From contig JAUSBK010000004.1 of the NCBI GenBank assembly GCA_030652115.1, positions 1 through 64,000 on the forward strand: 64,000 bases of DNA. The letters run 5' to 3'. The position numbers were made by a program, and so were the translations under genes. The notes below the pieces were generated by a model that saw nothing but the letters and a program-made list of their open reading frames with translations, did no database searches and was not told the DNA's origin. Position 1 is the stretch's first letter. Every line of letters starts with the position of its first letter. Source of the stretch: Coriobacteriia bacterium (lineage in GTDB: Bacteria > Actinomycetota > Coriobacteriia > Anaerosomatales > Anaerosomataceae). This document shows, piece by piece, positions 12,194 through 27,114 of this stretch.

Positions 12194-13552
12194 CTACGCC
12201 TCGGCAGGTGCCTCCGCTGTCAACTCCGCAGCCAACTCGGCAGTCACCTCGCCTGTTTGCTCGGCGGGTACCTCAGCGGGCTTCTTGTTGCCCGGCAGCG
12301 GCATGGACGCCACCACCAGGTCGATCACCTGCCAGATCTCCATGCCGAGCTCGTGGACCTCGTTGAGCTCCTCGATCTGCAGGCGGCAGTTCTCGCACGG
12401 GCAGGCGAGGATGTTCGCGCCGCTCGCCTTGAGCTGCTCGACCTTCTTGATGCCCGACTTGAGCCGGACGTCCTTGAACTCCTCCATGGCTACGATGCCG
12501 CCGCCACCGCCGCAGCACCACTGCTCGGCGCGGTTGGGGATCAGGTCGACGAAGTTGTTCGTAACGGCCTTGACGATGTCGCGTGGCTCCTCGAACTTGC
12601 CGCCGTTGCGACCGAGCTGGCACGGGTCGTGGTACGTGACCTTGCCCTCGATGAGTCCCTTGTCCACCGTGATGCGGCCGGACTTGATGTACTGGTCCAC
12701 CTTCTCGAGGATGTGGGTCACCTTGAAGGGCATCGGTTCCTTGCTCCACGCCTCGTAGAAGAACTCGGCGACGCGGTAGGCGTGCCCGCACTCGGGCACC
12801 ACGATCTCCTTTACGCCGAGGCGCACGGCCTCGTCGATGTAGCGCTTGGTGATCAGCCGCGCTTTCTCCGGGTCACCGTAGAAGTAGCCGTAGTTGGCCG
12901 CCTCGAACATCGAGATCGTCCAGCTCTCGCCGGCCTCCTCAAAGATGACGGCGGCCGGGCGGATCGAGTGAGCGCCGGCGAGCGCCACGTACAGCACGTC
13001 CGCGCCCTGCTTGTTCACGTGTACCTTGTGTTCGGGGTTGCCCGTGATCGCGCGGACGTCCTCCGAGATATCCTCGAATCCGCTCAGCATCACGCCTTCG
13101 AACATCGCCGCGTTGTCGCCCTTGAAGATGGCGGCGTCGGCGAGCTGGCCGAGCATCTCATTGCCGCGGCCGGCTGCGATCAGGATCCCCTTGGCCACCG
13201 AGAGGATCCACGCGGTGTCGATCGAGAAGGGGCAGTAGTACATGCAGCGACGGCAACCGGTGCAGGCGTAGGTGGAGTCGTAGAGCTCGTCGAGCAGGTT
13301 ATCGTCCGGATCCCGCGCTTCGTAGAGCGCCGGCACGAACTTGCCGGTCTTGTCGAAGTACTTCTTGTAGATCTGGCGGATGAGCTCCGCGCGGCGAGCG
13401 GGGAGGTACTTGAAGTCCCCGGTGCCCACGTACTGGTGGCAGGCATCCTTGCAGATAGCGCACCGCGCGCAGATGTCGATGTACTGCTTGAGCTGGCGGT
13501 TCATCTTCTTGTCGATGACCCCGGCGAGCGTCTTCATCTCAACAGTCTCCAT
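12194..13552 (-). CDS. HdrD/DsrK-like iron-sulfur oxidoreductase
   Basis: This 452-aa protein has a bacterial ferredoxin-like domain with two 4Fe-4S motifs (C28-C31-C34-C38 and C97-C100-C103-C107), then two CCG-type domains. The second is clear: YHDPCQLGR, WCCGGGGG and CPCENCR, which in HdrB/HdrD bind the unusual cluster that cleaves disulfides. The first has a partial counterpart (PECGHAYR). This is the plan of DsrK, HdrD and TmcB. The C-terminal 28 residues are a low-complexity tail of PAE, TAE and LAAE repeats not normal for the family. It follows the DsrM-like gene by 2 bases, so it likely forms a membrane complex that passes menaquinol electrons to a disulfide or persulfide substrate, which is inference. 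Confidence 0.85.
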   Translation of the reverse strand: METVEMKTLAGVIDKKMNRQLKQYIDICARCAICKDACHQYVGTGDFKYLPARRAELIRQIYKKYFDKTGKFVPALYEARDPDDNLLDELYDSTYACTGCRRCMYYCPFSIDTAWILSVAKGILIAAGRGNEMLGQLADAAIFKGDNAAMFEGVMLSGFEDISEDVRAITGNPEHKVHVNKQGADVLYVALAGAHSIRPAAVIFEEAGESWTISMFEAANYGYFYGDPEKARLITKRYIDEAVRLGVKEIVVPECGHAYRVAEFFYEAWSKEPMPFKVTHILEKVDQYIKSGRITVDKGLIEGKVTYHDPCQLGRNGGKFEEPRDIVKAVTNNFVDLIPNRAEQWCCGGGGGIVAMEEFKDVRLKSGIKKVEQLKASGANILACPCENCRLQIEELNEVHELGMEIWQVIDLVVASMPLPGNKKPAEVPAEQTGEVTAELAAELTAEAPAEA

Positions 13553-13554
13553 CG

Positions 13555-14280
13555 CTACTCACTCCTCACAAGGTTCGCCGAGAATGAGCCGATGGTGTGC
13601 ACGAGCTTGCTGAACGGGAAGTAGATCAAGAACAGGTCCGTGAACAGCATGTGCGTGCCGAGCGACCAGCCGACGTTTCCGTGCAGCAACTCGGCGGGGA
13701 AGGCCGGCTTGAACGTCAACAGGCTCTGGAACCACTCGCGGTACGTTGCGGCGTGGATGATTCCGCCGTACACGAACCGCATGTGATCGCCCATGATGAT
13801 GACGCCGAAGAGCAGGGCCAGCAGCAGGTAGTCCTCGGGCACCGAGAGCCTCTTGTACGGGCCGAAGGTGCGGCGACCGATCCAGAACAGCACGCCCACC
13901 AGCATCAGGATGCCAGCGATGCTGCCGGACAGGGCAGCGAACGTGTTCATGCCCTCCTCGCCGAGAAGCTCGGGAAGGATCGGGAACTCGGCGATCAGGC
14001 GACCGTGGCCCACGAACGCGCCGAGCGCCGCGACATGGAACGCGAACGCGAACACCCACATCACCGGCTCGATCTTCGCCGAGTGGGGGGCGATGAACGT
14101 GTCCTTCAGCATCTTGAAGAACCGGCCAGTGCCGCTTGCAGGCTTCGGGAACATCCCGAGACGGACCGCGGACTTCGGGGTGGTGGCCCACTCGTAGATG
14201 CGCCACCCCATTCCGATGATGAACACCGCCAGGGCAAGATACACGCCCCAGACAGATGTTATCCAGAGATACGTTTCCAT
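13555..14280 (-). CDS. DsrM/NarI-like membrane cytochrome b subunit
   Basis: This 241-aa protein has about five membrane helices (near 5-25, 72-95, 112-135, 148-168 and 205-228), with histidines placed for haem ligation in FAFAFHVAALGAFVGHGR and in GDHMRFVYGG. It matches the nitrate reductase gamma/DsrM/HmeC group. Such subunits oxidise quinol and feed electrons to a DsrK/HdrD partner. That partner starts 2 bases after this stop. GGAGAGG lies 14 bases before the ATG, rather far. Together with the next genes (TusA, DsrE) it suggests sulfur-linked respiration. Confidence 0.8.
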   Translation of the reverse strand: METYLWITSVWGVYLALAVFIIGMGWRIYEWATTPKSAVRLGMFPKPASGTGRFFKMLKDTFIAPHSAKIEPVMWVFAFAFHVAALGAFVGHGRLIAEFPILPELLGEEGMNTFAALSGSIAGILMLVGVLFWIGRRTFGPYKRLSVPEDYLLLALLFGVIIMGDHMRFVYGGIIHAATYREWFQSLLTFKPAFPAELLHGNVGWSLGTHMLFTDLFLIYFPFSKLVHTIGSFSANLVRSE

Positions 14281-14304
14281 GCGCGTGACCGCGTCCTCTC
14301 CTGG

Positions 14305-14547
14305 TTACTTGGAGCGCTTGACGAGGAAGACGAACAGATCGCCTTCCTTGCCGGCCGACAGGACCTCATGGCCGGTGCTGGCAGCCCACGCGGGGATGTC
14401 GGCCATGGCGCCTGGGTCGGTCGCGACAGCGCGGATGACCCCGCCGACTTCGACGTTGTTGATGTTCTGGCTGACCTTGACCATCGGGAGCGGGCAGAGC
14501 AGACCCTTGAGGTCCAGTTCCAGATCGACCTTTACTTCGTCAGACAT
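14305..14547 (-). CDS. TusA-family sulfur carrier
   Basis: This is an 80-aa TusA/SirA-like protein with the family fold and the CPxP active site LLCPLPMVK (C18 to P21). The Cys carries a persulfide in sulfur relay. It lacks any fused domain. In sulfur-oxidising and sulfur-reducing bacteria TusA and DsrE pass sulfur to Hdr- or Dsr-like enzymes, and those partners flank it here. The tRNA-thiolation role of E. coli TusA is less likely in this context. It lies 24 bases upstream of the DsrM-like gene on the same strand. Confidence 0.9.
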   Translation of the reverse strand: MSDEVKVDLELDLKGLLCPLPMVKVSQNINNVEVGGVIRAVATDPGAMADIPAWAASTGHEVLSAGKEGDLFVFLVKRSK

Positions 14548-14619
14548 GGTGATTCCCTTCTGTCACGCCGCGTGCCGGCAGCACGCGATCTCATCCGAGT
14601 AGGTGTTGCGGGCAGTGCG

Positions 14620-15102
14620 CTAGATGAACAGCTGAATCTCGGCTGTCTGCGCCTTGAGGAGGAAGAAGCCGACGCCCACTGGTTCCTTGACGCCATCAAT
14701 GAACGATTCCTGCGGAATCTCCATGACGTCCATGGACATCTGGCATCCGTACATGTTCACGCCCAACTCAACGGCCAGGTCGCGCATCTCGTTGAGCTTC
14801 TGCACGTTGTGGCTGCCCATCATCTTGCCGAACATCCAGCGGCCCATACCACCAAAGCTGAACTTGCTGGGGTTCGCCTTCATGATGTCGCCGCCGTACA
14901 TGGTTCCGAGCATGCGTCCAAAGAACGTCTTACCCGTTCTGACGTCCTTCTTGATCGCGCGGAGGCCCCAGAACGTGAAGAACATCGTCACGTCCATGCC
15001 CATTGCGGCCGCTCCGTTGGCGATGATGAAAGCGCCGAACAGCTTGTCCATGTCGCCGCTCATCACCACCATCGCGAGGCTCTTCTTGTGGTCATCACTC
15101 AT
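14620..15102 (-). CDS. DsrE/DsrF/DrsH-like (DsrE2) sulfurtransferase
   Basis: This 160-aa protein begins KKSLAMVVMSGDMDKLFGAFIIANGAAAMGMDVTMFFTFWGLRAI, the typical DsrE_2 start, with a hydrophobic second segment. The likely sulfur-carrying residue is C120 in NMYGCQMSMDVM. AAGGAGG precedes the ATG; the longer frame upstream has no signal. It is the first gene after the ArsR regulator and sits 72 bases upstream of tusA. DsrE2-TusA pairs are known sulfur-transfer partners, often linked to rhodanese or Hdr-like complexes. Confidence 0.9.
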   Translation of the reverse strand: MSDDHKKSLAMVVMSGDMDKLFGAFIIANGAAAMGMDVTMFFTFWGLRAIKKDVRTGKTFFGRMLGTMYGGDIMKANPSKFSFGGMGRWMFGKMMGSHNVQKLNEMRDLAVELGVNMYGCQMSMDVMEIPQESFIDGVKEPVGVGFFLLKAQTAEIQLFI

Positions 15103-15160
15103 TGTGGTTCCTCCTTCTAACAGGGCAGTGGTATCTCTCACGCGGTCGACGTGGCCGCGT

Positions 15161-15502
15161 CTAAGCCGGACGCTCGGGGGTCAGTGCGCGGTCAGCGACG
15201 CCGCGCTGCTCGTCGAGGATCTCCTGCATCACCTCGGTGATGAGATCGAACGCCTGGATGATCTTCGGATTGGCGATGCTGTAATACGTGTGATTCCCCG
15301 CGCGCCGAGTCCGAACCACTCCGTGACCGCGGAGCAACGCGAGGTGCTGGGAGAGGGTCGCCTGTGGGATGCCCGTGCGCTCGTGAAGCTGGGTGACTGA
15401 CAGCTCCTCTTCGCGCAGCGCGCCAAGAATCATCTGGCGCTTCTCGTTCGCAAGCGTCTTGCAGAGCTCAGAGTGCTGGCAGTAGAAGTCCGTGCTGTCC
15501 AC
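15161..15502 (-). CDS. ArsR/SmtB-family transcriptional regulator
   Basis: This is a 113-aa winged-helix regulator. The recognition helix lies in TQLHERTGIPQATLSQHLALLRGHGVV, followed by the wing RTRRAGNHTYYSIAN. Two cysteines occur, C8 and C14, near the N-terminus; the usual ArsR alpha-3 CxC metal site is absent. A thiol or persulfide switch, as in SqrR/BigR-type ArsR proteins, is plausible given the downstream sulfur genes, but the Cys positions do not match those proteins. A strong palindrome lies in its own promoter, implying autoregulation. The dsrE-tusA-dsrMK-like genes follow on the same strand after a 58-base gap. Confidence 0.9.
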   Translation of the reverse strand: MDSTDFYCQHSELCKTLANEKRQMILGALREEELSVTQLHERTGIPQATLSQHLALLRGHGVVRTRRAGNHTYYSIANPKIIQAFDLITEVMQEILDEQRGVADRALTPERPA

Positions 15503-15752: not shown

Positions 15753-16493
15753 GTGGCGCTCGAGGGCAACCTCAGGGATTTCTCGATAGCGGATATGTTC
15801 CGTCTGCTGGCCTCTGGCCGGAAGACCGGTACGCTGTATCTCGAGCGCGAGGACGCGCAGGGCCGGGTTTGCTTCAAGAAGGGGCGCGTCTTCTTCGCGA
15901 GCAGCAACTGGCACCGCGAGTCGCTCGGCCGGCGCCTGGTGAAGGCCGGCGTGATCTCGGAGAAGCAACTCCGGCAGGCACTCGGCCTTCAGAAGATCCA
16001 GAAGAAGGAGAAGGCTGGCCGGCGCCTCGGGCAGATCCTCGTGGATGAGGGCTACCTCGACGGCAAGGTGCTCGAGACGTTCATCCAGGACCAGATCAAT
16101 GACACGCTATTCGACCTCTTCCGGTGGGAAGAGGGGGAGCTTCGTTTCGAGCCGGACGAGACATGCGACGACGAGGACATCGGCATCTCGGTGTCGGTAG
16201 AGAACATCATCATGGAAGCGTCGCGTCGCCTGGAGTTGTGGAGCAGGATCCGGCAGAAGATACCGTCGATGGACACCGAGTTCGTCATGGCCTCCACGCC
16301 CGGCGACAAGTCCATGGAGATCCATCTCAAGCCGCGCGAGTGGATGCTGTTGTGCTATCTCCACGGGGGTCGGTCGGTGCGGGAACTCGTCGAGCTCACA
16401 GGCTACAACGATTTCGAGACCGCCAAGATCCTGTACGGCATGCACGCCGCCGGTCTCATAGAGCGCCTCGGCGCGGAGGCCGAGGTCCGATGA
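15753..16493 (+). CDS. DUF4388 (PATAN-type) protein
   Basis: This 246-aa cytoplasmic protein begins with ALEGNLRDFSIADMFRLLASGRKTGTLYLER, the usual start of DUF4388/PatA-N domains. It continues through SLGRRLVKAGVISEKQLRQAL, a segment like the MshEN/T2SSE-N repeats. The last 90 residues form a helical, winged-helix-like region ending in a GYNDFETAKILYGMHAAGLIE motif. DUF4388 proteins are linked to gliding and twitching control in cyanobacteria and myxobacteria and to response-regulator pathways. The GTG at 15753 was chosen for the GGGGAG 8 bases upstream; an in-frame GTG at 15744 is an alternative. It is the first gene of the chemosensory operon. Confidence 0.85.
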   Translation: MALEGNLRDFSIADMFRLLASGRKTGTLYLEREDAQGRVCFKKGRVFFASSNWHRESLGRRLVKAGVISEKQLRQALGLQKIQKKEKAGRRLGQILVDEGYLDGKVLETFIQDQINDTLFDLFRWEEGELRFEPDETCDDEDIGISVSVENIIMEASRRLELWSRIRQKIPSMDTEFVMASTPGDKSMEIHLKPREWMLLCYLHGGRSVRELVELTGYNDFETAKILYGMHAAGLIERLGAEAEVR

Positions 16494-16512
16494 CCGGGGG
16501 CGTGGGGCGACC

Positions 16513-17997
16513 GTGCTGAACGAGGATCTAGCGAAGGACCTGACGCTCGAGGAGTTCCGGCGGTTCCGGGATCTGCTCCATCGGCAGTCGGGCATCTATC
16601 TCGAGGAGTCGAAGCTGGACTCGCTGCGGATATCGCTCGTGACCCGAGCAACGCGACTTGGGTACCAGTCGTTGTCCGAGTACTACAAGGCGCTGGAGCG
16701 CGACGACCAGGAGTTCAACGAGCTGCTCAATCTCGTCACCATCAACGAGACGAGCTTCTTCCGCTTTCCGGCGCAGTTTGACGCGCTAAGGGACAGCATC
16801 ATCCCCGAGATCATGGGGGCGAAGGCCAGCGGCAACCGCGGCGTGCGCATCTGGTCCGCAGGCTGCTCGACCGGCGAGGAGCCCTACTCGATCGCCATGA
16901 CGCTGATCGACTCCGGCATCGAGATGGCGGGCTACAAGCCGCAAGTCCTTGGCACCGACGTCTCCACCAAGGCGCTGGCGCGCGCGAAGGCCGGCGTGTA
17001 CGGTAAGCGAGCCATGATGAGCGTGCCGGAAGATGCCGTGAGCCGGCACTTCGAGCGCACCGCGAGCGGCGACTATCGCGTGAACGACCGCGTCCGTTCG
17101 TACGTGGACTTCGGCTACCAGAACCTGATCAGAGAGCCATACCCACTCTCGCTCATGGGCAATTGGGACATCATCTTCTGCCGCAACGTCACGATCTACT
17201 TCCGGCTCGACTCCACGCGGCGCGTGGTCTCGAACTTCTTCGACAGCCTGAATGAAGGCGGCTACCTGTTCGTCGGTCATTCGGAGACGCTCACGTCGGT
17301 GAACGACACCTTCGAAGCGGTCGAGGTAGGCGGTGTCTTCCTGTACCGGAAGCCCGTGCCGCGCAAGACGTTCGCGTTCGGTCAATCTCAAGCGCCCAAG
17401 ACGCCACGAGCTGCGCGACCGTCAACGTCGGCGACCCGGGCGGCCAGGGCAAAGGCAAAGCCGGTGGCCACACCGCCGGACGACTCCGGCGACCCGCTCG
17501 AGCAGGCGCGGATCGACCTCAAAGAAGGCCGTCCGGAGCGTGTGCTCGAGATCGTCGAGGCGGTTCTGGCCACCGATCCCAACAACGCCGAGGCCCACCT
17601 GCTCTCGGCATACGTGCATGCCGACACCGCGAACTACGACGAGGCGATGCGCGCGTCGCACAGGGCCCTCGCGATCAACCCGTTGCTCCCGGTGGCGCGC
17701 TACATCCTCGGCATCATCTACCAACGCCAGGGCGATCCGGTGCGAGCGGTATCGGAGCTCAAGAAGACGATCTACATCGACACGGACTTTGCGCTCGCGC
17801 ACCTCAACCTCGCCAACATCTACAAGGCGCAGCGCAAGTGGGAAGCGGCGGCGAAGGAGTACGAGAACGCGCTGAAGTCCCTCAAGGCCAGTCCTGAGGG
17901 GGCTTGGACGGAGTTTTCCGGCGGGTTCCAGGCTGATCTGCTGGTCAGAACGTGCGAACGCAGTCTGATAGAGTGTCGGAAGGCCATGGGCGGCTAG
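16513..17997 (+). CDS. cheR: CheR-type methyltransferase with TPR tail
   Basis: This 494-aa protein has an N-terminal CheR helical domain (about 8-65), a SAM-dependent methyltransferase domain (about 80-275), an Ala/Pro linker and C-terminal TPR repeats (about 330-480). Motif RIWSAGCSTGEEPYSIAM is the SAM loop, NWDIIFCRNVTIYF the catalytic region and GGYLFVGHSET the family end. CheR methylates receptor glutamates using S-adenosylmethionine. TPR-fused CheR proteins (as in FrzF and related systems) occur mostly in alternative chemosensory systems, where the TPR part recruits partners. The receptor at 21481 lacks a C-terminal CheR-docking pentapeptide, so the TPR may provide docking. The ribosome site is weak. 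Confidence 0.95.
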   Translation: MLNEDLAKDLTLEEFRRFRDLLHRQSGIYLEESKLDSLRISLVTRATRLGYQSLSEYYKALERDDQEFNELLNLVTINETSFFRFPAQFDALRDSIIPEIMGAKASGNRGVRIWSAGCSTGEEPYSIAMTLIDSGIEMAGYKPQVLGTDVSTKALARAKAGVYGKRAMMSVPEDAVSRHFERTASGDYRVNDRVRSYVDFGYQNLIREPYPLSLMGNWDIIFCRNVTIYFRLDSTRRVVSNFFDSLNEGGYLFVGHSETLTSVNDTFEAVEVGGVFLYRKPVPRKTFAFGQSQAPKTPRAARPSTSATRAARAKAKPVATPPDDSGDPLEQARIDLKEGRPERVLEIVEAVLATDPNNAEAHLLSAYVHADTANYDEAMRASHRALAINPLLPVARYILGIIYQRQGDPVRAVSELKKTIYIDTDFALAHLNLANIYKAQRKWEAAAKEYENALKSLKASPEGAWTEFSGGFQADLLVRTCERSLIECRKAMGG

Positions 17998-18071
17998 AAC
18001 GCAGGCTGTCGTCGTCATCCGGGAACGGCGCCGTATGCCGTTCGGGACGGCGACGCGGGAGGGAGACGGTA

Positions 18072-18452
18072 ATGGCAGGCGCGCGGATCCTGGCGGTTGA
18101 TGACAGCCCCACCATCCTCGAGATGATCAAGGCCATCCTGCTCGCAGGTGGCTACGAGGTCATCACGGCGACGGATGGGGCGGAGGCACTCGAGACCGCC
18201 CGTGCGGAGAAGCCCGACCTGATCCTTCTGGACGTCATGCTTCCGAAGCTTGATGGCTACCGGGTCTGTCGGCTGCTCAAGTTCGACCAGAACTACAAGT
18301 CCATTCCGATCATCATGCTCACCGCCAAGACCGAGGAGCAGGCGATGGCCACCGGCATTCGGACCGGTGCGAACCAGTACCTTACCAAGCCCGTTGAGCC
18401 GGACACCCTACTCAACGCGGTGGCCGAAGAGCTCGCGAAGGCCCAGGGTTAG
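18072..18452 (+). CDS. CheY-like single-domain response regulator
   Basis: This 126-aa receiver domain has no output domain. The acidic pocket is in LAVDDSPT, the phospho-acceptor in LILLDVMLPKLDG (about D54), the switch Thr in IIMLTAKTEE and the Lys in YLTKPVEP. ATG follows GGGAG. It is the probable phosphorylation target of the CheA encoded downstream. The PilB-like protein starts 9 bases after its stop, so the two may interact. It resembles PilG/PilH-type regulators of pilus chemosensory systems. A hairpin (18023-18043) lies in the gap before it. Confidence 0.93.
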   Translation: MAGARILAVDDSPTILEMIKAILLAGGYEVITATDGAEALETARAEKPDLILLDVMLPKLDGYRVCRLLKFDQNYKSIPIIMLTAKTEEQAMATGIRTGANQYLTKPVEPDTLLNAVAEELAKAQG

Positions 18453-18461
18453 GCGATACGC

Positions 18462-20309
18462 ATGGCCCCGGCTAGCGGCATCTCGGAACGGGTGCTCGAC
18501 AGTCTCGTCTCGGCAGGTCTCATGACAGCCGAGCAGGTCGCCAGCGTCATTGACGCCGCATCCTCCCGCGGCGTCAATGTGGGCAGCGTCCTGGCCGAGC
18601 GCGACATGGTGAGCGCTATCGATGTCATCTCAGTGCTCGAGCACGAGATGGGCGTCCCTCAGGTGGACCTGACGAGCTACGCCCCCGAGGACGAAGCGCT
18701 TGCGCTCGTCCCGGCCCGTCTGGCGCGCGACCGGCGCATCCTGCCTCTCTTCGAGATCGAGGGCATGCTGACCGTTGCGGTCGGTGACCCGATGGATGTC
18801 TTCGCGCTCGACTCGGTGGCCGCCGAACTGGGTCTCGAGCTTGAGCCGGTGCTGGCCGAGAGCAGCTCGTTCGAGTCCACGCTCGAGCAGTACTATCCGT
18901 CAGGTTCTGCGGCGGCCGAGACCGAGATGGCCCCGCCTCCACCCGTCGCGGAGGAGATCGAGGAGCTGGCGGCATCTGACTTCTTCGAGGAGACCGCCGG
19001 GGAGGAGACACCGGCCGTGCCGGTTGCCCCGGTCGCAGAAGCCCCCTCGGAGCAGGTCGCCGAGGTGCTGATCGGCGAGACCATCGAGCAGATGGCGGCG
19101 GCCGAGCCAGCACCACAGGGCCCGGCCGGCATCGATCTCGACGTGCTCGCCGTTGCCGATGCGCGCAAGGTTGCGGTCCTCGTCGCGGACATCATCGACG
19201 ATGCGATCGCCAGGGGTGCGAGCCGCATCCACCTGCTTCCGTACAAAGACGACTTCTTCCTGGTCTATCGCGTGAAGGGCGCCCTCGAGAAGGTCGCAAG
19301 CGCCCCGCTTTCGCTTCAGGCTGCGCTCGTCGACGGCTTCAAGCAGTACGCCAAGCTCGGGGGCGTTCCCGCATCGCGCCCAGCGCTCGGACGGCTGCAC
19401 GCACGCTTCGGCGACAAGGACCGGGTCCTCACCGTCTCGGTGGTGCCCACGGTCTCGGGTCAGCGGCTCGTCGTCTCGATCACGCCCTTCAAGCCGCAGC
19501 CTCGCGGGTTCGCCGAGCTGGGCATGGGTGAAGCCGAGACCCGGGCGCTTCAGGCGATGGTCGAGCGCGGTCGTGGCATCCTGCTCGTGTGCGCGCCGGT
19601 CGCGGGGGGCTCCACGACGACCTACTACGCACTGCTGGCGCATGCGGCTGCAGCGGGGAAGACGGTCTACTCGGTGGAGCAGTCCATCGAGTACGAGATC
19701 GCTGCCGTCGCACAGGTGATGGTCGAGCCGGGCGGTCCGTCTCCTGCGGCCTACATCGCCGCCGGGATGCGACAGGACACCGATGTCATCGCGATCGACG
19801 GTCTTCGAACCGTCGAGGACGTGCACTTCGCCGTCGAGGCCGCCGGCCTCGGCAAGCTTGTCATCGCCACGTTCCCGGCGGCTGACATCGCGTCAGGCGT
19901 GCGCCGGATGCTCGACTTGGGTGCCGAGCCGCACAGCCTTGCCGCAGCGCTGACCCTCGGCGTAGGACAGCGCCTCGTGCGGCTGAACTGCCCCAACTGC
20001 TCGGTGGAGACAGACGGCGCGCTCGCTGCCCGCATCCCCGGTGTTCCGGCGGGGTTGCGGGACAGGGCGGGCTCCGGCTGTCCGAACTGCGGCAAGACCG
20101 GCTTCAAAGGCGCCACGGCGATCCACGAGGTTCTGCCGTTCACCGAGCCGGTTCGCGCGACGGTCGGTCGTGGTGCCTCGGATGCGGAGATCGCCGCCGC
20201 TGCAGCTGCTGCCGGCATGCGACCACTTCTGATCTCAGGGCTCGCACGGGTCAAGAGCGGCGACGTAAGTGCCGAGGAACTGAACAGAGTCCTGCGCTTC
20301 GTGATCTAA
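18462..20309 (+). CDS. PilB/GspE-like protein with degenerate ATPase motifs
   Basis: This 615-aa protein has a MshEN-like N-terminal domain (about 1-145), an Ala/Glu/Pro-rich linker (about 145-225) and a full secretion-ATPase domain (about 225-610). Every key ATPase motif is altered. Walker A is APVAGGST (378-385), with Ser in place of the essential Lys. The Asp box reads VEQSIEYE instead of VEDPVE. Walker B is DVIAIDGLR rather than the usual GEIRD, losing the catalytic Glu. The His box reads ATFPA instead of STLHT. The zinc site is kept: CPNC and CPNCGKTGFKG near 510 and 545. It is therefore probably a non-hydrolysing scaffold or nucleotide sensor. It lies inside the chemosensory operon, between CheY and CheW, instead of with pilus genes. 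Confidence 0.85.
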   Translation: MAPASGISERVLDSLVSAGLMTAEQVASVIDAASSRGVNVGSVLAERDMVSAIDVISVLEHEMGVPQVDLTSYAPEDEALALVPARLARDRRILPLFEIEGMLTVAVGDPMDVFALDSVAAELGLELEPVLAESSSFESTLEQYYPSGSAAAETEMAPPPPVAEEIEELAASDFFEETAGEETPAVPVAPVAEAPSEQVAEVLIGETIEQMAAAEPAPQGPAGIDLDVLAVADARKVAVLVADIIDDAIARGASRIHLLPYKDDFFLVYRVKGALEKVASAPLSLQAALVDGFKQYAKLGGVPASRPALGRLHARFGDKDRVLTVSVVPTVSGQRLVVSITPFKPQPRGFAELGMGEAETRALQAMVERGRGILLVCAPVAGGSTTTYYALLAHAAAAGKTVYSVEQSIEYEIAAVAQVMVEPGGPSPAAYIAAGMRQDTDVIAIDGLRTVEDVHFAVEAAGLGKLVIATFPAADIASGVRRMLDLGAEPHSLAAALTLGVGQRLVRLNCPNCSVETDGALAARIPGVPAGLRDRAGSGCPNCGKTGFKGATAIHEVLPFTEPVRATVGRGASDAEIAAAAAAAGMRPLLISGLARVKSGDVSAEELNRVLRFVI

Positions 20310-20319
20310 GGAGCAGTGC

Positions 20320-20910
20320 GTGCCGAGAAAGACCAAGAAGGCCGAGGCTGTCGTCGCCGAGGAGCTGTCCGCCGAGAGCTCGGTAGCCCCCGAAGACGTC
20401 ACGCCCGCTGCGCCCGATCTCGAACTGGAACCCGAGGGTGTCGATGAGTCACCAGTCCTGGCCCTGGCGGTCACATTCAGGCTCGAGGGCCAGATCTACG
20501 GGCTTCCGCTCGAGGCCGTACAGGAGATCCAGCAGCTCGTAGAGTACACGCCGCTACCCGACTCGGCGCCCGCTCTTGTGGGGCTCATCGACCTGCGCGG
20601 ACTCGTGGTGCCCGCCATCGATCTTCGCGTCCTGCTCGGCCTGGTGCCCCGGGACTTCACGCTCGAGACGCCGATGGTCTTCTGCCGCGTGAGGGATCAC
20701 GTCGTCTGTCTCATCGTGGATTCGGTGGAAGACGTCGTGGATCTGCCCTCCGAGGGCCTGCAGCCGCCGTCGAACCTCTACAGCATGGCCGACCGCATGC
20801 TCGGCATGTGCCGGCTTCCGCAGGGGCTACTCTTGCTCCTCGACATCGATCGGCTTGTGCCGGACGCTGCGCTCGCGGCGGCAGACGCCGCGGAAGGCGG
20901 GCACTCATGA
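20320..20910 (+). CDS. cheW: CheW-like coupling protein 1
   Basis: This 196-aa protein has a charged N-terminal extension (about 1-45) followed by one CheW domain: LAVTFRLEGQIYGLPLEAVQEIQQL, the VGLIDLRGLVVPAIDLR core and a VVCLIVDSVEDVVDLP end. CheW links receptors to CheA. The extension and the rather divergent core suggest a role different from the second CheW that follows. GTG has AAGGAG upstream. Its stop overlaps the next start as ATGA. Confidence 0.9.
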   Translation: MPRKTKKAEAVVAEELSAESSVAPEDVTPAAPDLELEPEGVDESPVLALAVTFRLEGQIYGLPLEAVQEIQQLVEYTPLPDSAPALVGLIDLRGLVVPAIDLRVLLGLVPRDFTLETPMVFCRVRDHVVCLIVDSVEDVVDLPSEGLQPPSNLYSMADRMLGMCRLPQGLLLLLDIDRLVPDAALAAADAAEGGHS

Positions 20911-21467
20911 GTGGGGAGATGGGGCACGCCGCAAGCGACTTCCAGAATGCGAAGATCCACGAGGAACTGCGCCGTCGCGCCGAGTCGCTTGCGCAGGGCC
21001 AGGAGGAGGAGATCATCGCCGATGCCGAGGGGCTGTTGCTCTTCCGGCTCGGTGAGGAGTGGTACGCATTCCCCATTGATGGCGTTCGCGAGATCTACAA
21101 CGAGTACTCGGTCACGCGGATTCCGCGCGTACCGGACTTCATCCTGGGTGTCGTGAACGTGCGCGGGGAGATCGTGTCGGTGACCGACCTCGGCACGATG
21201 ATCCGCGTTCCCAGTCGCACGCAGCGTGCGCTCGACGACGCTCTGCCCTCGGCCATCATCGTTGCCAACGAGCGGTGTGTGTCCGCCGTGGTCGTCGACG
21301 AGATCGGTGATATCGCGGAGGTCCCACGCGGTAACGTCGAGCCCGCGCTGTCGACGCTCGATCGTGCACAAGCCGAGTTCGTGGCGGGATCCGTGTACCT
21401 CGACGGCCGGCTCATAGGTATTGTGAACCTCGACAAAGTCCTCGAGCCCATCGGTGACAACGTCTGA
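20907..21467 (+). CDS. cheW: CheW-like coupling protein 2
   Basis: This 186-aa protein has a helical N-terminus of about 40 residues and a canonical CheW domain: LLLFRLGEEWYAFPIDGVREIYNEYSVTRIPRVPDFILGVVNVRGEIVSVTDL. It matches standard CheW better than its neighbour does. The ATG overlaps the previous stop (ATGA), so translation is probably coupled. Two dissimilar CheW proteins in one operon are common in pilus-type systems, where one may serve another receptor set. Confidence 0.93.
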   Translation: MSGEMGHAASDFQNAKIHEELRRRAESLAQGQEEEIIADAEGLLLFRLGEEWYAFPIDGVREIYNEYSVTRIPRVPDFILGVVNVRGEIVSVTDLGTMIRVPSRTQRALDDALPSAIIVANERCVSAVVVDEIGDIAEVPRGNVEPALSTLDRAQAEFVAGSVYLDGRLIGIVNLDKVLEPIGDNV

Positions 21468-21480
21468 CTAGGAGCGAAGC

Positions 21481-22713
21481 ATGTTCAAGCGATTGATGGA
21501 GAAGGTCAGCGGCAACTTCCTGCTGAAGTACTCGATATTCACCGTAACTCTGGTGGCCGTGGCAAACCTCGTGCAGATCACGGCGGGCTGGGTCATCTTC
21601 AAGGACGAGTTCGGCGGGATCACCACCGACCTGGTCCTTCGCGCGCTAATGATGATCGGCATCTTCGTAGCGGTGATCATCGTGTTCGCGTACTTCCAGC
21701 GGCAGCTGGGCAAGCGCATGATGGCGCCGCTGTATGAAGTCGTGAGCAGCATCAAGGCGTCATGCGAGGGCGAGATCGGCCACAAGGTCGCCGTGGACTC
21801 CAAAGACGAGTTCGGCGTGCTCACCCGTTCCTACAACCAGATGCTTGACCTGATCATCTACCTCATCAGCCAGATGCAGGACTCCTCCCAGCGTCTTGCC
21901 GGCGCGTCCGGCGAGATCCTTTCCGCCACCGAGCAGCAGGCGTCGGGTGCGGCCGAGCAGGCCGCCTCGATCAGCGAGACGACCGCGACGATGGAGGAGC
22001 TCGCTGCCACGTACCGCCAGATCGCCGAGAATGCGAACCAAGTGGTCAAGATGGCCGAGACCTCCCTCGGTAACGCCGAGAGCGGGCAGCAGGCGGTCAT
22101 GAACACGCTGGACTCGATGGAGTCGATCAAGACGCGCTCGCAGTCCTCGGCGGCGAAGATCCTTCAGCTCGGCGAGCGCAGCCAGCAGATCGGGCAGGTC
22201 CTCTCCATCATCAACAGCATCGCCGACCAGACCAAGATCCTCGCGCTCAACGCGGCCATCGAGGCTGCGCGCGCGGGTGAGGCCGGCAAGGGCTTCAGCG
22301 TTGTGGCGGTCGAGATTCGCAAGCTCGCCGAGTCGGTGGTCGACTCCACGGGCGAGATCGAGACGATCATGACCGAGATACAGGGAGCCGCGAACGATCT
22401 GGTCATCGCCACCGAGCAGGAACTCAAGCAGGTCGACACCGGTGTGGATCTCGCCCACACCACGGGCGACAGCTTCGATCAGATTCTCGAGACCATCGAG
22501 CAGACGACCATCGCGGCCAAGGAGATCTCCGCTGCGACGCAGCAGCAGCGCACGGCGACCGAGCAGGTCGTCAAGGCTATGCACGAGGTGGCCTCGGTGG
22601 CCCAGCAGACGGCCACCGCATCGCGCCAGGTCGCGGGTGCCGCAGAACAGCTGTCGGGCATCGCGAAGGAATCCAGCCACATCGGCGCAGCGTTCAGGAT
22701 CGTCGGCCAGTAG
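21481..22713 (+). CDS. Methyl-accepting chemotaxis protein without external sensor domain
   Basis: This 410-aa receptor has two membrane helices (about 18-40 and 52-75) joined by only about 12 residues, so there is no periplasmic ligand domain. A HAMP domain follows (about 75-130), then a signalling coiled coil. The hairpin tip [38 protein letters not shown] (about 250-287) binds CheW and CheA. Gln/Glu pairs suited to methylation are present ([13 protein letters not shown] and TEQVVKAM). It probably senses membrane state, a protein partner or the cell interior instead of a soluble ligand. Such receptors are typical of alternative-function and pilus systems. Confidence 0.92.
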
Positions 22714-22743
22714 CGGTCCGGTCGGCGGCACGAAGGAGACAAG

Positions 22744-25080
22744 ATGGTCGAGTTCGACCGTTCGGTTTTTATCGCCAAGTTCCAGGAGGAGGCGACCGAC
22801 CTCCTACAGCGCCTGAACGAGGGCATCATCACGCTCGAGGGGGAGCCGACGAACCGGCCGCTCATCGACCAGTGGCTGCGCGACGCCCACACGCTCAAGG
22901 GCTCGTCGCGGATGGTCGGTCTCATTGAGATCTCCGACATCGCACACCGCATGGAAGACGTGATGGTCAAGGTCCGCGATGGTGCGCTCGCTTACACCAC
23001 GGACATGACCGACACATTCTTCGAGGCGCTCGACACGGTCGTCTTCCTTGCGGAGCACGCCGGCAAGGAGTCGGCATCCGAGGCCGAACTCGAAGGCGTG
23101 ACGGCCCGGCTCAACACGCTTGCGGGCAATGCGGTCGTGGTGGAGCCCGCTGACGAGGCGCCCCCGGTCCGGCAGCACTCTGCCGAGGGGCCGGCTCAGT
23201 CTGACGCCGACGACGCAGACACTGATGGCGAGCAGGCAGCCGCAGGCGAGGCCGAGGATTCGCCCGCGCCGCGCGAGGCCGACGCCCCGGGGCCGCAGTC
23301 GGCCCAGCGCGACGACAAGCTGCACACCAAGGAGCAAACGACCGTACGCGTTCGCACGAACCAGGTCGACCGGCTCCTCAACCTTGTGAGCGAGGTCGTG
23401 ATCTCGCAGATCAAGGCCGAGCAGCGCGTGCGCGATATGCGTGGCGCCATGATTCAGGCTGCGGACACGACGCAGGTGTGGGCGCGCATCAAGACCATGC
23501 TGACCGCCCTCTCCCATGACGACCAGTCAGCGCTCGACGACGACCTCCACCTACTCGATGAACTACTGTCCACCCTGCGCAAAGACATTGCTTTGCTGTC
23601 CAAGGACTACGCGGACGACACGTCGCGCACCTCCACGGTGGTGGGCGACTTGCAGGCGAACGCGATGTCACTTCGCATGCTGCCGGTCAGCACGGTGTTC
23701 AACACCTTTCCCCGCGCAATGCGTGATCTCGCCCGCACGTACAAGAAGGACGTCGAGCTGTTCATCGAGGGCGGCGACACGGAACTCGACAAGAAGGTCC
23801 TCGAGGAGATCAACGACCCCCTGATACACATCATGCGCAACGCCGTGGATCACGGGATCGAGCCCGCAGCGGACCGGGTCAAGGCGGGCAAGCCCGCCGT
23901 AGGCACGATCCGACTGAGCGCCCGACAGGAGGGCGACCACATCATCATCGAGGTCTCCGACGACGGCGCCGGTATCGATCCGGGCAAGGTGAAAGCGGCC
24001 GCCGTTCGCAAGGGCTACATCTCTGAGTCAGAGGCCAACGCGATGTCTGATCGCGAGGCCCGCTACCTCATCTTCGAGAAGGGGTTCTCCACTGCGGCGA
24101 TCATCACCGAGATATCCGGTCGCGGCGTGGGCATGGACGTCGTCCGCGAGTTCGTGGTCGAGCGGCTGAAGGGCTCCCTCGATGTGGAGTCCGAGCTCGG
24201 GAAGGGCTCGACGTTCCGCCTGACCATCCCGCTTACACTTGCGATCATCCGCGCGCTCCTGTTGCGCGTGGGCGGTCAGACCTTCGCATTGCCCACGTCA
24301 GCTATAGAAGAAACCGCCCGCATCGAGCGCTCGGCGATCATCAAGGTCGAGGGCCACGAGGTGATCAGGCGCCAGCGCAGGACCGTCCCGCTCGTTCATC
24401 TGCGGGACATCCTCGGTATCGAGTCCGACGCGGACGACACCGGCGTGAAGATCCCGGTCGCAACGCTCGGCTTCTCGGGCCACCGCATCGGCATGATCGT
24501 GGACGAGTTCGTGGGCGAACAGCAGATCGTGATCAAGACGCTGGGGACGCACCTCAAGCGTGTCGACAACGTCGCCGGTGTGACCATACTCGGCGCAGGC
24601 GAGGTCGTTCCGATCCTCAATGTCCCGGACCTGATGACGAACGGTCGGCAACTCACGGGCGTGCGCGCTCGTCGGGCGGGTGCTGCCGTGGACACCGAGA
24701 AGGACAGGGGACCGAGGCGAATCCTCATCTGCGAAGACTCGTTCACCACGCGCGAGCTCGAGCGGTCGATCTTCGAGGCGGCCGGCTACGAGGTCGAGAC
24801 CGCCACCGATGGCGCCCTGGGGCTGACCAGGTTGCGCGAGGGCCTGAACCCCGACGCGGTCGTCACCGACGTGCAGATGCCCAACATGACCGGATTCGAC
24901 CTCACGAGGGCGATCAAGGCCGATGACGAACTCAAGGCTATCCCCGTCATCATCGTCACCTCGCTTGAGCGTGACGAGGAGAAGGCCGAAGGGATCAGCG
25001 CCGGAGCGGATGCGTACATCACCAAATCGGTGTTCAACCAGGACACGTTGCTTGATACCGTCGAACGATTGATACGGTAG
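22744..25080 (+). CDS. cheA: CheA histidine kinase with C-terminal receiver domain
   Basis: This 778-aa hybrid kinase has one HPt domain with H49 in DAHTLKGSSRM, an acidic Ala/Pro linker (about 130-200) in place of a recognisable CheY-binding domain, a dimer domain, the HATPase domain (N box HIMRNAVDHGIE, then DDGAGIDPGKV and GRGVGMDVVREFV), a CheW-like domain (about 500-640) and a C-terminal receiver (about 655-778, phospho-acceptor in AVVTDVQMPNMTG). It autophosphorylates and passes phosphate to CheY, CheB and its own receiver, which may act as a phosphate sink. This plan matches FrzE and ChpA-type kinases more than E. coli CheA. Confidence 0.96.
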   Translation: MVEFDRSVFIAKFQEEATDLLQRLNEGIITLEGEPTNRPLIDQWLRDAHTLKGSSRMVGLIEISDIAHRMEDVMVKVRDGALAYTTDMTDTFFEALDTVVFLAEHAGKESASEAELEGVTARLNTLAGNAVVVEPADEAPPVRQHSAEGPAQSDADDADTDGEQAAAGEAEDSPAPREADAPGPQSAQRDDKLHTKEQTTVRVRTNQVDRLLNLVSEVVISQIKAEQRVRDMRGAMIQAADTTQVWARIKTMLTALSHDDQSALDDDLHLLDELLSTLRKDIALLSKDYADDTSRTSTVVGDLQANAMSLRMLPVSTVFNTFPRAMRDLARTYKKDVELFIEGGDTELDKKVLEEINDPLIHIMRNAVDHGIEPAADRVKAGKPAVGTIRLSARQEGDHIIIEVSDDGAGIDPGKVKAAAVRKGYISESEANAMSDREARYLIFEKGFSTAAIITEISGRGVGMDVVREFVVERLKGSLDVESELGKGSTFRLTIPLTLAIIRALLLRVGGQTFALPTSAIEETARIERSAIIKVEGHEVIRRQRRTVPLVHLRDILGIESDADDTGVKIPVATLGFSGHRIGMIVDEFVGEQQIVIKTLGTHLKRVDNVAGVTILGAGEVVPILNVPDLMTNGRQLTGVRARRAGAAVDTEKDRGPRRILICEDSFTTRELERSIFEAAGYEVETATDGALGLTRLREGLNPDAVVTDVQMPNMTGFDLTRAIKADDELKAIPVIIVTSLERDEEKAEGISAGADAYITKSVFNQDTLLDTVERLIR

Positions 25081-25083
25081 CCG

Positions 25084-26160
25084 ATGAGCGACACATCCCC
25101 CACGCCGCAGGGTGACCGCATCCGCGTGCTCATCGCTGACGACTCGCTCGTCGCACGCGAGATGCTCAGCCAGATCCTGAAGAGCGATCCGGGCATCGAG
25201 GTGGTCGGCACGGCGGTCAACGGCCAGGAGGCCGTGGACATGGTCGCACGGCTGCGTCCCGACCTCATCACCATGGATGTCCACATGCCGAAGATGGACG
25301 GTCTCGAGGCCACGGAACGCATCATGGCCTACACGCCCACGCCGATCCTCGTCGTGTCCTCTTCGGTTCACGGTGAGGGCATGGGCCGTGCGTTCGACGC
25401 GCTCGCCATCGGGGCGCTCGAGGTCATCAAGAAGCCCGAGCCGCGCGACTGGGCTGCGCTCGAGGCGATCGGTCGCGACATCATCAGGCGGGTGAAGATC
25501 CTCGCGCGGGTGCGGGTGATCACTCACATCCGTGGCCGAAGGGCGCCGATTCATCGCACCGAACCGGAGCAGACCAAGGCCTCGGGCAGGCGGGGACGCG
25601 TTCAGCTGGTGGCGATCGGCTCGTCGACGGGGGGCCCCTCGGCGCTGTTGAACGTGCTCGGGCGTCTGCGTCCCGATTTCCCGTTGCCGATCGTCATCGC
25701 CCAGCACATCGCGGAGGGATTCGTCCCCGGTCTGGCGGCCTGGCTCGATGCGGGGTGCCCTGTGAAGGTCGCGGCGGCCGAGAACGGTAAGCCGGTGAAG
25801 CCCGGGGTGGCGTACCTTGCGGCGACCGGCTCGAACATGGAGATCGACGGGTCGATCATGCGCTTCACCAAACCGCTCACCGGGCAGCTGTACATTCCTT
25901 CGGCGGACACGCTCTTTGAGTCGGTGGCGCGCTCGTACGGTCCACACGCGCTCGGCGTGCTGCTCACCGGCATGGGGGTGGACGGGGCGCGGGGACTGAA
26001 GCAGCTGCACGATCTCGGAGCAACGACGATCTGCCAGGACGAGGCCACGTCCACCGTCTGGGGTATGCCACGGGCCGCGATCGAGATGGGCGCGGCGAGC
26101 GCGGTCTTGCCGGTGAACGACATCGCCGCGGAGATCGACCGCGTCACGGTGTCGGTGTAG
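25084..26160 (+). CDS. cheB: CheB receptor methylesterase/deamidase
   Basis: This 358-aa protein has an N-terminal receiver (about 12-130, acceptor in LITMDVHMPKMDG) and a C-terminal methylesterase (about 170-355). The catalytic triad lies in AIGSSTGGPSAL (Ser), IVIAQHI (His) and LLTGMGVDGA (Asp). It reverses CheR methylation and deamidates receptor Gln. The start is 3 bases after the cheA stop, so they are probably coupled. It is the last gene of the operon; murI has its own promoter signal right after. Confidence 0.96.
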   Translation: MSDTSPTPQGDRIRVLIADDSLVAREMLSQILKSDPGIEVVGTAVNGQEAVDMVARLRPDLITMDVHMPKMDGLEATERIMAYTPTPILVVSSSVHGEGMGRAFDALAIGALEVIKKPEPRDWAALEAIGRDIIRRVKILARVRVITHIRGRRAPIHRTEPEQTKASGRRGRVQLVAIGSSTGGPSALLNVLGRLRPDFPLPIVIAQHIAEGFVPGLAAWLDAGCPVKVAAAENGKPVKPGVAYLAATGSNMEIDGSIMRFTKPLTGQLYIPSADTLFESVARSYGPHALGVLLTGMGVDGARGLKQLHDLGATTICQDEATSTVWGMPRAAIEMGAASAVLPVNDIAAEIDRVTVSV

Positions 26161-26190: not shown

Positions 26191-27114
26191 ATGCGAGAGC
26201 TCCCCATCGGCATATTCGACTCCGGTCTCGGCGGCCTCACCGTTGCGGGTGAGATCATGCGCGCGCTTCCGGACGAGAGTGTCATCTACTTCGGCGACAC
26301 GGTGCGCTGTCCGTACGGCCCCCGCGATCCCGCCGAAGTGCGGGAGTTCGTGCTCCAGATCGGGCAGTGGCTCACTGAGCGGCGCGTGAAGCTCATCGTT
26401 ATCGCCTGCAACACCGCCACCGCCGCCGGACTGCCCCTCGCGCAGTGCGTCTTCGACGTCCCGGTTCTCGGGGTCGTCGAGCCGGGTGCTCGCGCAGCCG
26501 TGCAGAGCACCGTCAACCGGCGCGTGGGCGTCATCGGGACCGTCGGCACGGTCGAGTCGGGCGCCTACAGCACCGCGGTCCGTGCGCTGGATGCCGGGGT
26601 CACGGTGTTCTCGGTGGCCACGCCACGCTTCGTGGACGTCGTGGAGCAGGGACTGCGGCTCGGCGAAGGCACCATCGAGGACTGGCTCGCCGAGACGGGC
26701 GACGTGTACATCCGTCCCTCGTTCTACGAGATGGCGCGCGACTACCTCGACCCGCTCAAGCGCAGCGGCATCGACACCCTGGTGCTCGGCTGCACGCACT
26801 TTCCCCTGCTTGCGGCGCCCATCCAGCAGGTCGTGGGACCCAAGGTGCGACTGATCTCCTCGGCCCAGGAGACCGCACGCGAGGTTGCCGAGACACTCGA
26901 GGCACGCGGCCACCTTGCCGAGTCCGGCGCGAAGCGGACCGAGACCTTCGCTACCACCGGTGATGCTGAGGAGTTCGCGGGGCTGGGCGCCCGTGTTCTG
27001 GGCCGCCGGGTGGCATCTGCCGAGTTCGTGGAACTCGCCGAACTCGAGACGATGGTCACCGGGGAGCTCCGCGAGCGGCAGCGCGCTTTCGAGGAGGAGG
27101 GCGCGTGCAGCTAA
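26191..27114 (+). CDS. murI: Glutamate racemase
   Basis: This 307-aa enzyme converts L- to D-glutamate for peptidoglycan. The two catalytic cysteines are in VIACNTATA (C73) and VLGCTHFPLL (C201), and the N-terminal IGIFDSGLGGLTV is the family start. Length is slightly above the usual 265-285 because of a charged C-terminal extension. The ATG has no ribosome site; a TATACT box lies just upstream. The MBL-fold gene overlaps its end by 10 bases. Confidence 0.96.
   Translation: MRELPIGIFDSGLGGLTVAGEIMRALPDESVIYFGDTVRCPYGPRDPAEVREFVLQIGQWLTERRVKLIVIACNTATAAGLPLAQCVFDVPVLGVVEPGARAAVQSTVNRRVGVIGTVGTVESGAYSTAVRALDAGVTVFSVATPRFVDVVEQGLRLGEGTIEDWLAETGDVYIRPSFYEMARDYLDPLKRSGIDTLVLGCTHFPLLAAPIQQVVGPKVRLISSAQETAREVAETLEARGHLAESGAKRTETFATTGDAEEFAGLGARVLGRRVASAEFVELAELETMVTGELRERQRAFEEEGACS

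Follow-up and report, generated by a model that had tools for sequence, protein, structure and literature searches.

Why should a chemosensory operon carry a gene for a pilus motor? The question is raised by a plus-strand gene cluster at positions 15753-26160 of a 64,000-nucleotide stretch (hereafter the window) from a Coriobacteriia bacterium of the order Anaerosomatales (contig JAUSBK010000004.1, assembly GCA_030652115.1). In this cluster, homologues of CheR, CheY, CheW, CheA and CheB, a chemoreceptor and a PATAN (DUF4388) protein accompany a paralogue of the type IV pilus (T4P) motor ATPase PilB, here called PilBx. Our data describe a chemosensory system of pilus-type features with a new kind of integral subunit. 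How a pilus motor receives chemosensory information has yet to be established; in this locus, the link seems to be written into the operon in the form of a dead motor copy and is therefore accessible to simple binding experiments.

Fold and active site of PilBx

PilBx aligns with PilB over its full length (TIGR02538, 270.9 bits; phmmer against Geobacter PilB, 1e-70) and has the domain order and, by prediction, the fold of PilB, with an MshEN-like N domain, N2D, the C-terminal domain and the zinc cysteines. The score lies below the curated TIGR02538 cut-off of 675.65, which is a weak test, as the intact PilBs of the same genome (626-648 bits) fall below it as well. The solved structure nearest to its AlphaFold2 model (mean pLDDT 87.6) is that of Geobacter PilB (Foldseek E 1.8e-34, 31% identity).

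Within this fold, Walker A has changed from GPTGSGKS to APVAGGST, the Asp box from EDPVEY to EQSIEY, Walker B from GEIRD to DGLRT and the His box from TGHLVLSTLHT to LGKLVIATFPA. We counted these residues in the window and 56 relatives; one of these 57 sequences is gapped at the first arginine finger. The Walker A Lys, the Walker B Glu, the Asp and Pro of the Asp box and both arginine-finger positions are gone in 57/57, and the His-box His is missing from all 56 readable sequences; the four zinc cysteines are retained in 56 of 56 that could be read. The position of the Walker A Lys varies freely, with R, A, S, G or C instead. Asp441 of Walker B, Asp446, Gly383 and Ser/Thr385 show little or no variation, D446 being specific to the family, and the other PilB/PilT proteins of the genome retain their P-loop. 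The ratio of nonsynonymous to synonymous substitutions (dN/dS) of PilBx amounts to 0.06-0.12 in eight pairs, within the range of CheA and MurI. Since the active site is lost in all members and dN/dS is low, PilBx is, judged by its sequence, no ordinary PilB and no pseudogene either, and we predict that it is unable to hydrolyse ATP.

The protein is also firmly tied to its operon. Among the 298 genomes of the class that were searched, PilBx occurs in 58, all of them from the order of the window (58/69), and in none of the remaining ones. The nine genes have the identical order in 43 of 43 complete loci, counted by hand from the gene table and with CheR or PilBx split in a few, and 13 more loci cut by contig ends agree as far as they are readable. 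Ten of the 11 genomes of the order without PilBx also have no orthologous CheA, and the eleventh (G129) holds only a CheA fragment at a contig end. Because genomes without PilBx thus hold no complete orthologous CheA, the operon behaves as a unit by gene content. The first-pass annotation had regarded a degenerate secretion ATPase as an integral member of the gene set, and both the conserved order and the consistent loss of the active site bear this out. A canonical PilB is present in all 58 genomes with PilBx; the two genomes without a canonical PilB are also without PilBx, although both belong to one genus that is PilBx-less throughout.

Operon layout and pilus-type features

Family profile searches recovered the nine open reading frames with the coordinates and families originally assigned to them:

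15753..16493, + strand: PATAN/DUF4388 protein, 246 aa, GTG start (Pfam DUF4388, 117.9 bits, 1e-34)
16513..17997, + strand: CheR methyltransferase with C-terminal TPR repeats (CheR 1e-57 plus TPRs; WSAGCSTGEEPY motif conserved)
18072..18452, + strand: CheY, a lone receiver domain of 126 aa (REC 1e-30)
18462..20309, + strand: PilBx, PilB paralogue (T2SSE 1e-56 plus MshEN)
20320..20910, + strand: CheW 1 (CheW family match; the two CheWs 1e-29/1e-30)
20907..21467, + strand: CheW 2 (CheW family match; 4 bp overlap with CheW 1)
21481..22713, + strand: sensorless chemoreceptor with two transmembrane segments, HAMP and a 40H-type bundle (HAMP plus MCPsignal 1e-43)
22744..25080, + strand: CheA with C-terminal receiver domain (Hpt/HATPase/CheW/REC)
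25084..26160, + strand: CheB, receiver plus methylesterase (REC plus CheB 1e-58)

In agreement with the close spacing reported before, genes in 45-54 relatives overlap or are separated by a median of 10-30 bp, with the exception of CheR-CheY (~71 bp). From this spacing and the conserved order, we infer that the nine genes form one transcript. The single promoter proposed by the first-pass annotation did not emerge: a consensus scan returned two sigma-70-like sites against 1.8 expected by chance, none of them 5' of the first gene, and the scan for promoters and terminators gave no signal above chance level. Comparison with relatives indicates that CheA, CheB, CheR and CheY retain their functional residues; of the nine genes, CheY shows the strongest conservation (dN/dS 0.01-0.06).

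As first noted from the bare sequence, the window is free of flagellar and pilus structural genes. Apart from PilBx there is no T2SSE and no PilC, PilD, PilT, LC7 or MglA homologue in it, and FlhA was not found genome-wide. The proposal to look for pil genes elsewhere proved fruitful, as a family-by-family search of the remaining genome yielded three intact PilB-type ATPases together with PilC, PilD and PilT-type genes. Two of the intact PilBs lie in one T4P cluster:

L120:3121-13887 (G000:C10): PilB2, LC7/Roadblock, 726-aa PATAN protein with c-di-GMP motif, MglA-like GTPase, 352-aa hypothetical protein, PilB1, PilC, prepilin peptidase

The two PilBs enclose LC7, PATAN, the MglA-like GTPase and the hypothetical protein. 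Of 11 genomes of the order that were sampled, 10 show this cluster, and in the remaining one it is truncated by the contig start. Its PATAN protein and that of the che operon are paralogues with 53% identity over 245 residues.

A second line towards the pilus is the receptor. It has two hydrophobic segments (approximately residues 19-34 and 52-70) joined by a short loop, which leaves no ligand domain. Its alignment with Tsr shows two symmetric 14-residue insertions, one per bundle arm, and insertions of this sort are absent from its alignment with a Pseudomonas aromatic acid receptor, so that by alignment its bundle is of the 40H type. Receptors with 40H bundles are of the PilJ type and a feature of the type IV pilus (Tfp) class of chemosensory systems, to which the ChpA-like CheA with several Hpt domains also belongs. 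From the Tfp class we thus found the 40H receptor, a single-domain CheY and T4P genes in the genome, but not the multi-Hpt CheA, as family profiles recognise a single Hpt domain. From the alternative cellular function (ACF) class we found CheR-TPR, which is associated with such pathways (PMC3447774), but no ACF-type multidomain response regulator: CheY consists of a receiver domain only, and CheB alone among the regulators has several domains. We consider the system pilus-linked on these sequence features and do not file it under the Tfp class, a placement made by class-specific hidden Markov models outside this comparison. Between the two options left by the first-pass annotation, an alternative-function or a pilus-type system, the 40H receptor, the single CheY, the T4P-cluster paralogues and the canonical PilB of every operon-bearing genome speak for the pilus type, and an alternative function is not favoured.

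The PATAN protein may connect the operon with cyclic di-GMP (c-di-GMP). At residues 58-114, it has an MshEN-type tandem c-di-GMP motif (NCBIfam c-di-GMP_motif, 45.4 bits, cut-off 38) with two 24-residue RLGxxL...LxxxLxxQ motifs that are near-invariant in most relatives, and it is likely a c-di-GMP binder. A Foldseek search with the model of this protein gave no significant match in the PDB. In PilBx, the corresponding motif is weak (18.5 bits against the cut-off of 38), whereas the intact PilBs of the T4P cluster reach 56 and 44 bits, and for this reason c-di-GMP sensing may have moved from PilB to the PATAN protein. The 14 GGDEF matches in the genome suggest that c-di-GMP is in use in this organism.

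Related che operons and the origin of PilBx

A search for further PilBs in che operons, using a phylum-wide sample together with close relatives, returned three operons (G511, G521 and G577), all from one other class of the phylum of which 36 genomes were searched. The operons of G521 and G577 have the gene order of the window plus one gene between PATAN and CheR, that of G577 ending within CheA. In their PilBs, Walker A still has its Lys and Walker B a Glu, but the Asp and His boxes are lost. The operon of G511 is ordered differently, and the PilB encoded there after CheY is canonical in every respect. In this last operon, a gene for a phosphonate-type periplasmic binding protein separates CheA from a longer receptor (L126:13705-16326); the receptors of G521 and G577 are as short as that of the window.

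The additional gene of G521 and G577 is a homologue of the GTPase of the T4P cluster (32% and 38% identity) with a damaged P-loop in both cases:

L124:5508-6020 and L125:7483-8013: decayed MglA-like GTPase between PATAN and CheR in related che operons of the other class

In consequence, these two operons hold homologues of three T4P-cluster proteins (PATAN, GTPase and PilB) and both NTPases are decayed. The situation resembles the MglA/MglB polarity module of T4P, of which the LC7 protein and the MglA-like GTPase of the T4P cluster are also reminiscent, whereas the operon of the window and throughout its order is without the GTPase.

In our trees, PilBx and the PilBs of G521 and G577 share one branch, G511 is placed between that branch and ordinary PilBs, and the split holds with either long branch removed (98-100% support); with the root assumed among ordinary PilBs and long branches for G521 and G577, this topology is supportive rather than final. 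Because of the tree placement, and with the shared gene order as separate support, the sequences are best read as PilB having entered a che operon once and decayed step by step thereafter. The resulting series from intact to dead PilB illustrates well how an enzyme may turn into a signalling protein. Four other candidates (the PilBs of G519, G341, G505 and G526) were rejected as relatives of PilBx since they are ordinary intact PilBs. The cyanobacterial matches were likewise discarded as operon relatives, being ordinary PilB/PilT-type genes that nearly all have an intact Walker A according to a pattern check. The arrangement named beforehand as one that would contradict a special role of the ATPase, an active enzyme always located beside complete pilus genes, is not found in the order of the window (56 flanks, 57 sequences), and G511 with its intact PilB matches it in part.

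Proposed role of PilBx and alternatives

We propose, with a confidence that does not exceed an even chance, that the operon encodes a T4P-linked chemosensory system, one subunit of which, PilBx, arose by duplication of the PilB motor, lost its catalytic activity and now serves in signalling. The sensorless 40H receptor, the two CheWs and CheA-REC would form an array that responds to a cue from the membrane or the cytoplasm, CheA would phosphorylate CheY, and CheY~P together with the PATAN protein would act on PilBx. With its conformation permanently nucleotide-free, PilBx could gate pilus extension either by filling the sites where PilB docks on the base of the pilus or as a member of the PilB ring, while CheR and CheB would provide adaptation. 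The chemosensory and pilus parts of this scheme are read from the genes, and the order of the steps is what we infer. Taken back in time, an ancestral che operon would have taken in copies of PATAN, the MglA-like GTPase and PilB from the T4P cluster, both NTPases would have decayed stepwise, and PilBx would remain as a nucleotide-independent switch that mixes or competes with the real PilB; we rate this fuller scenario at slightly less than an even chance.

Such a role has partial precedents. The Pil-Chp system of Pseudomonas aeruginosa likewise combines CheY-type regulators, CheW, receptor, CheA-REC, CheR and CheB in a pilus context, whereas the operon of the window has a CheR with TPRs, one CheY and one recognised Hpt. 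To our knowledge, the Pil-Chp operon contains neither a PilB homologue nor a PATAN/MshEN protein. Its CheY-like PilG affects the polar localisation of PilB (PMC11656802). Closer to the proposed output are the cyanobacterial Pix/Tax systems, in which a PATAN and CheY module acts on a PilB; in Synechocystis, the PATAN-CheY protein PixE interacts with PilB1 (PMC7690835, citing Jakob 2019). The operon of the window differs from Pix/Tax in that PATAN and receiver are encoded separately, the PATAN protein carries a c-di-GMP motif and the PilB concerned is a dead paralogue encoded in the operon itself. In Myxococcus xanthus, a PilB impaired in nucleotide binding signals in a chemosensory pathway: the Walker A mutant K327A signals to Dif without a pilus, whereas a Walker B mutant does not (PMC5544727). 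There, the signalling protein is a working motor or a laboratory mutant, and PilBx would be the natural counterpart of the latter, a dedicated and naturally fixed dead paralogue. As far as we know, the PilB of M. xanthus is not part of a che operon, and we know of no earlier natural family of obligate regulatory pseudo-motors in the PilB/GspE superfamily. If our proposal is true, PilBx would be the first such family, and a sensing system that is conserved through the order together with pilus genes would gain an expected function. The open-access titles and abstracts returned by literature searches described no PilB paralogue in a che operon, and we found no open-access paper joining pseudo-ATPase, type IV pilus and PilB, which as absences are weak evidence.

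Several observations weigh against the proposal. The direction of the output, from CheY to PilBx, is suggested by the adjacency of the two genes and by analogy, and the operon is unlinked to pilus genes, as none were found in the flanks of 56 loci within the order. An Arg at the position of the Walker A Lys in 30 of the 57 PilBx sequences leaves room for residual nucleotide binding. The PATAN motif deviates from the MshEN definition, which has a 5-residue spacer and an Arg at position 1 of motif I (PMC5013675), by a 10-residue spacer and a Ser for this first Arg. Finally, Anaerosomatales isolates are described as non-motile though piliated (PMC9686372), and hence the system may act on pilus number or on adhesion instead of twitching.

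The main rival places PilBx on the input side: it would be located at the base of the pilus and act as a state sensor that reports to receptor, CheW and CheA, and CheY would act on exopolysaccharide, gene expression or polarity. This would fit M. xanthus, where PilB acts upstream of the Dif proteins and signals constitutively when mutated in Walker A (PMC5544727), and also the finding that a receptor without ligand domain goes along with a decayed PilB (window, G521 and G577) and a longer receptor with an intact one (G511). However, a permanently dead PilB is unable to report its own ATP state, the pairing of sensorless receptor and decayed PilB comes from few independent lineages, and PilBx adjoins CheY and not the receptor. 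We consider a position on the input side unlikely, though plausible enough to be taken seriously.

Quite improbable in our view is an output unrelated to the pilus, such as secretion, envelope or DNA uptake, for which PilBx would be a scaffold borrowed from PilB. The lack of pilus genes beside the operon, the occurrence of CheR-TPR mostly in alternative-function pathways (PMC3447774) and the description of Anaerosomatales isolates as non-motile (PMC9686372) would agree with it, but it has to contend with the 40H receptor, the missing ACF-kind regulator and the paralogy of PATAN and PilBx to T4P-cluster proteins. Moreover, the genomes without a canonical PilB (two, from one genus) are also without the operon.

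A still active motor with a divergent nucleotide site is highly improbable, as the constancy of Asp441, Asp446, Gly383 and Ser/Thr385, which would suit it, is outweighed by the loss of the Lys with free variation at its position, the catalytic Glu, the Asp and His boxes and both arginine fingers. The probability that PilBx is a pseudogene in decay which the operon has kept as a passenger is close to nil: PilBx is split over two frames in a single genome (G089, L119), by a frameshift or an assembly error, but dN/dS is ~0.1, the frames are open in the other orthologues and there are family-specific invariants such as D446. On dN/dS and residue counts, both ideas were rejected.

The operon is followed by a murI-like gene at 26191 (named from its translation). 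Upstream, on the minus strand at 12194-15502, lie genes that by their translations encode an ArsR-type regulator, a DsrE-like protein and a DsrM/DsrK-like pair, and these neighbours adjoin the operon through most of the family. Elsewhere in the genome, a receiver domain is fused to a PilT-type ATPase (L122:7409-9118; G000:C7), which makes a response regulator whose output may be a retraction motor. A second chemosensory system at G000:C9:26000-46300 (L123) comprises CheC, CheA with P2, CheB, CheW and receptors, with a diguanylate cyclase and PilT nearby.

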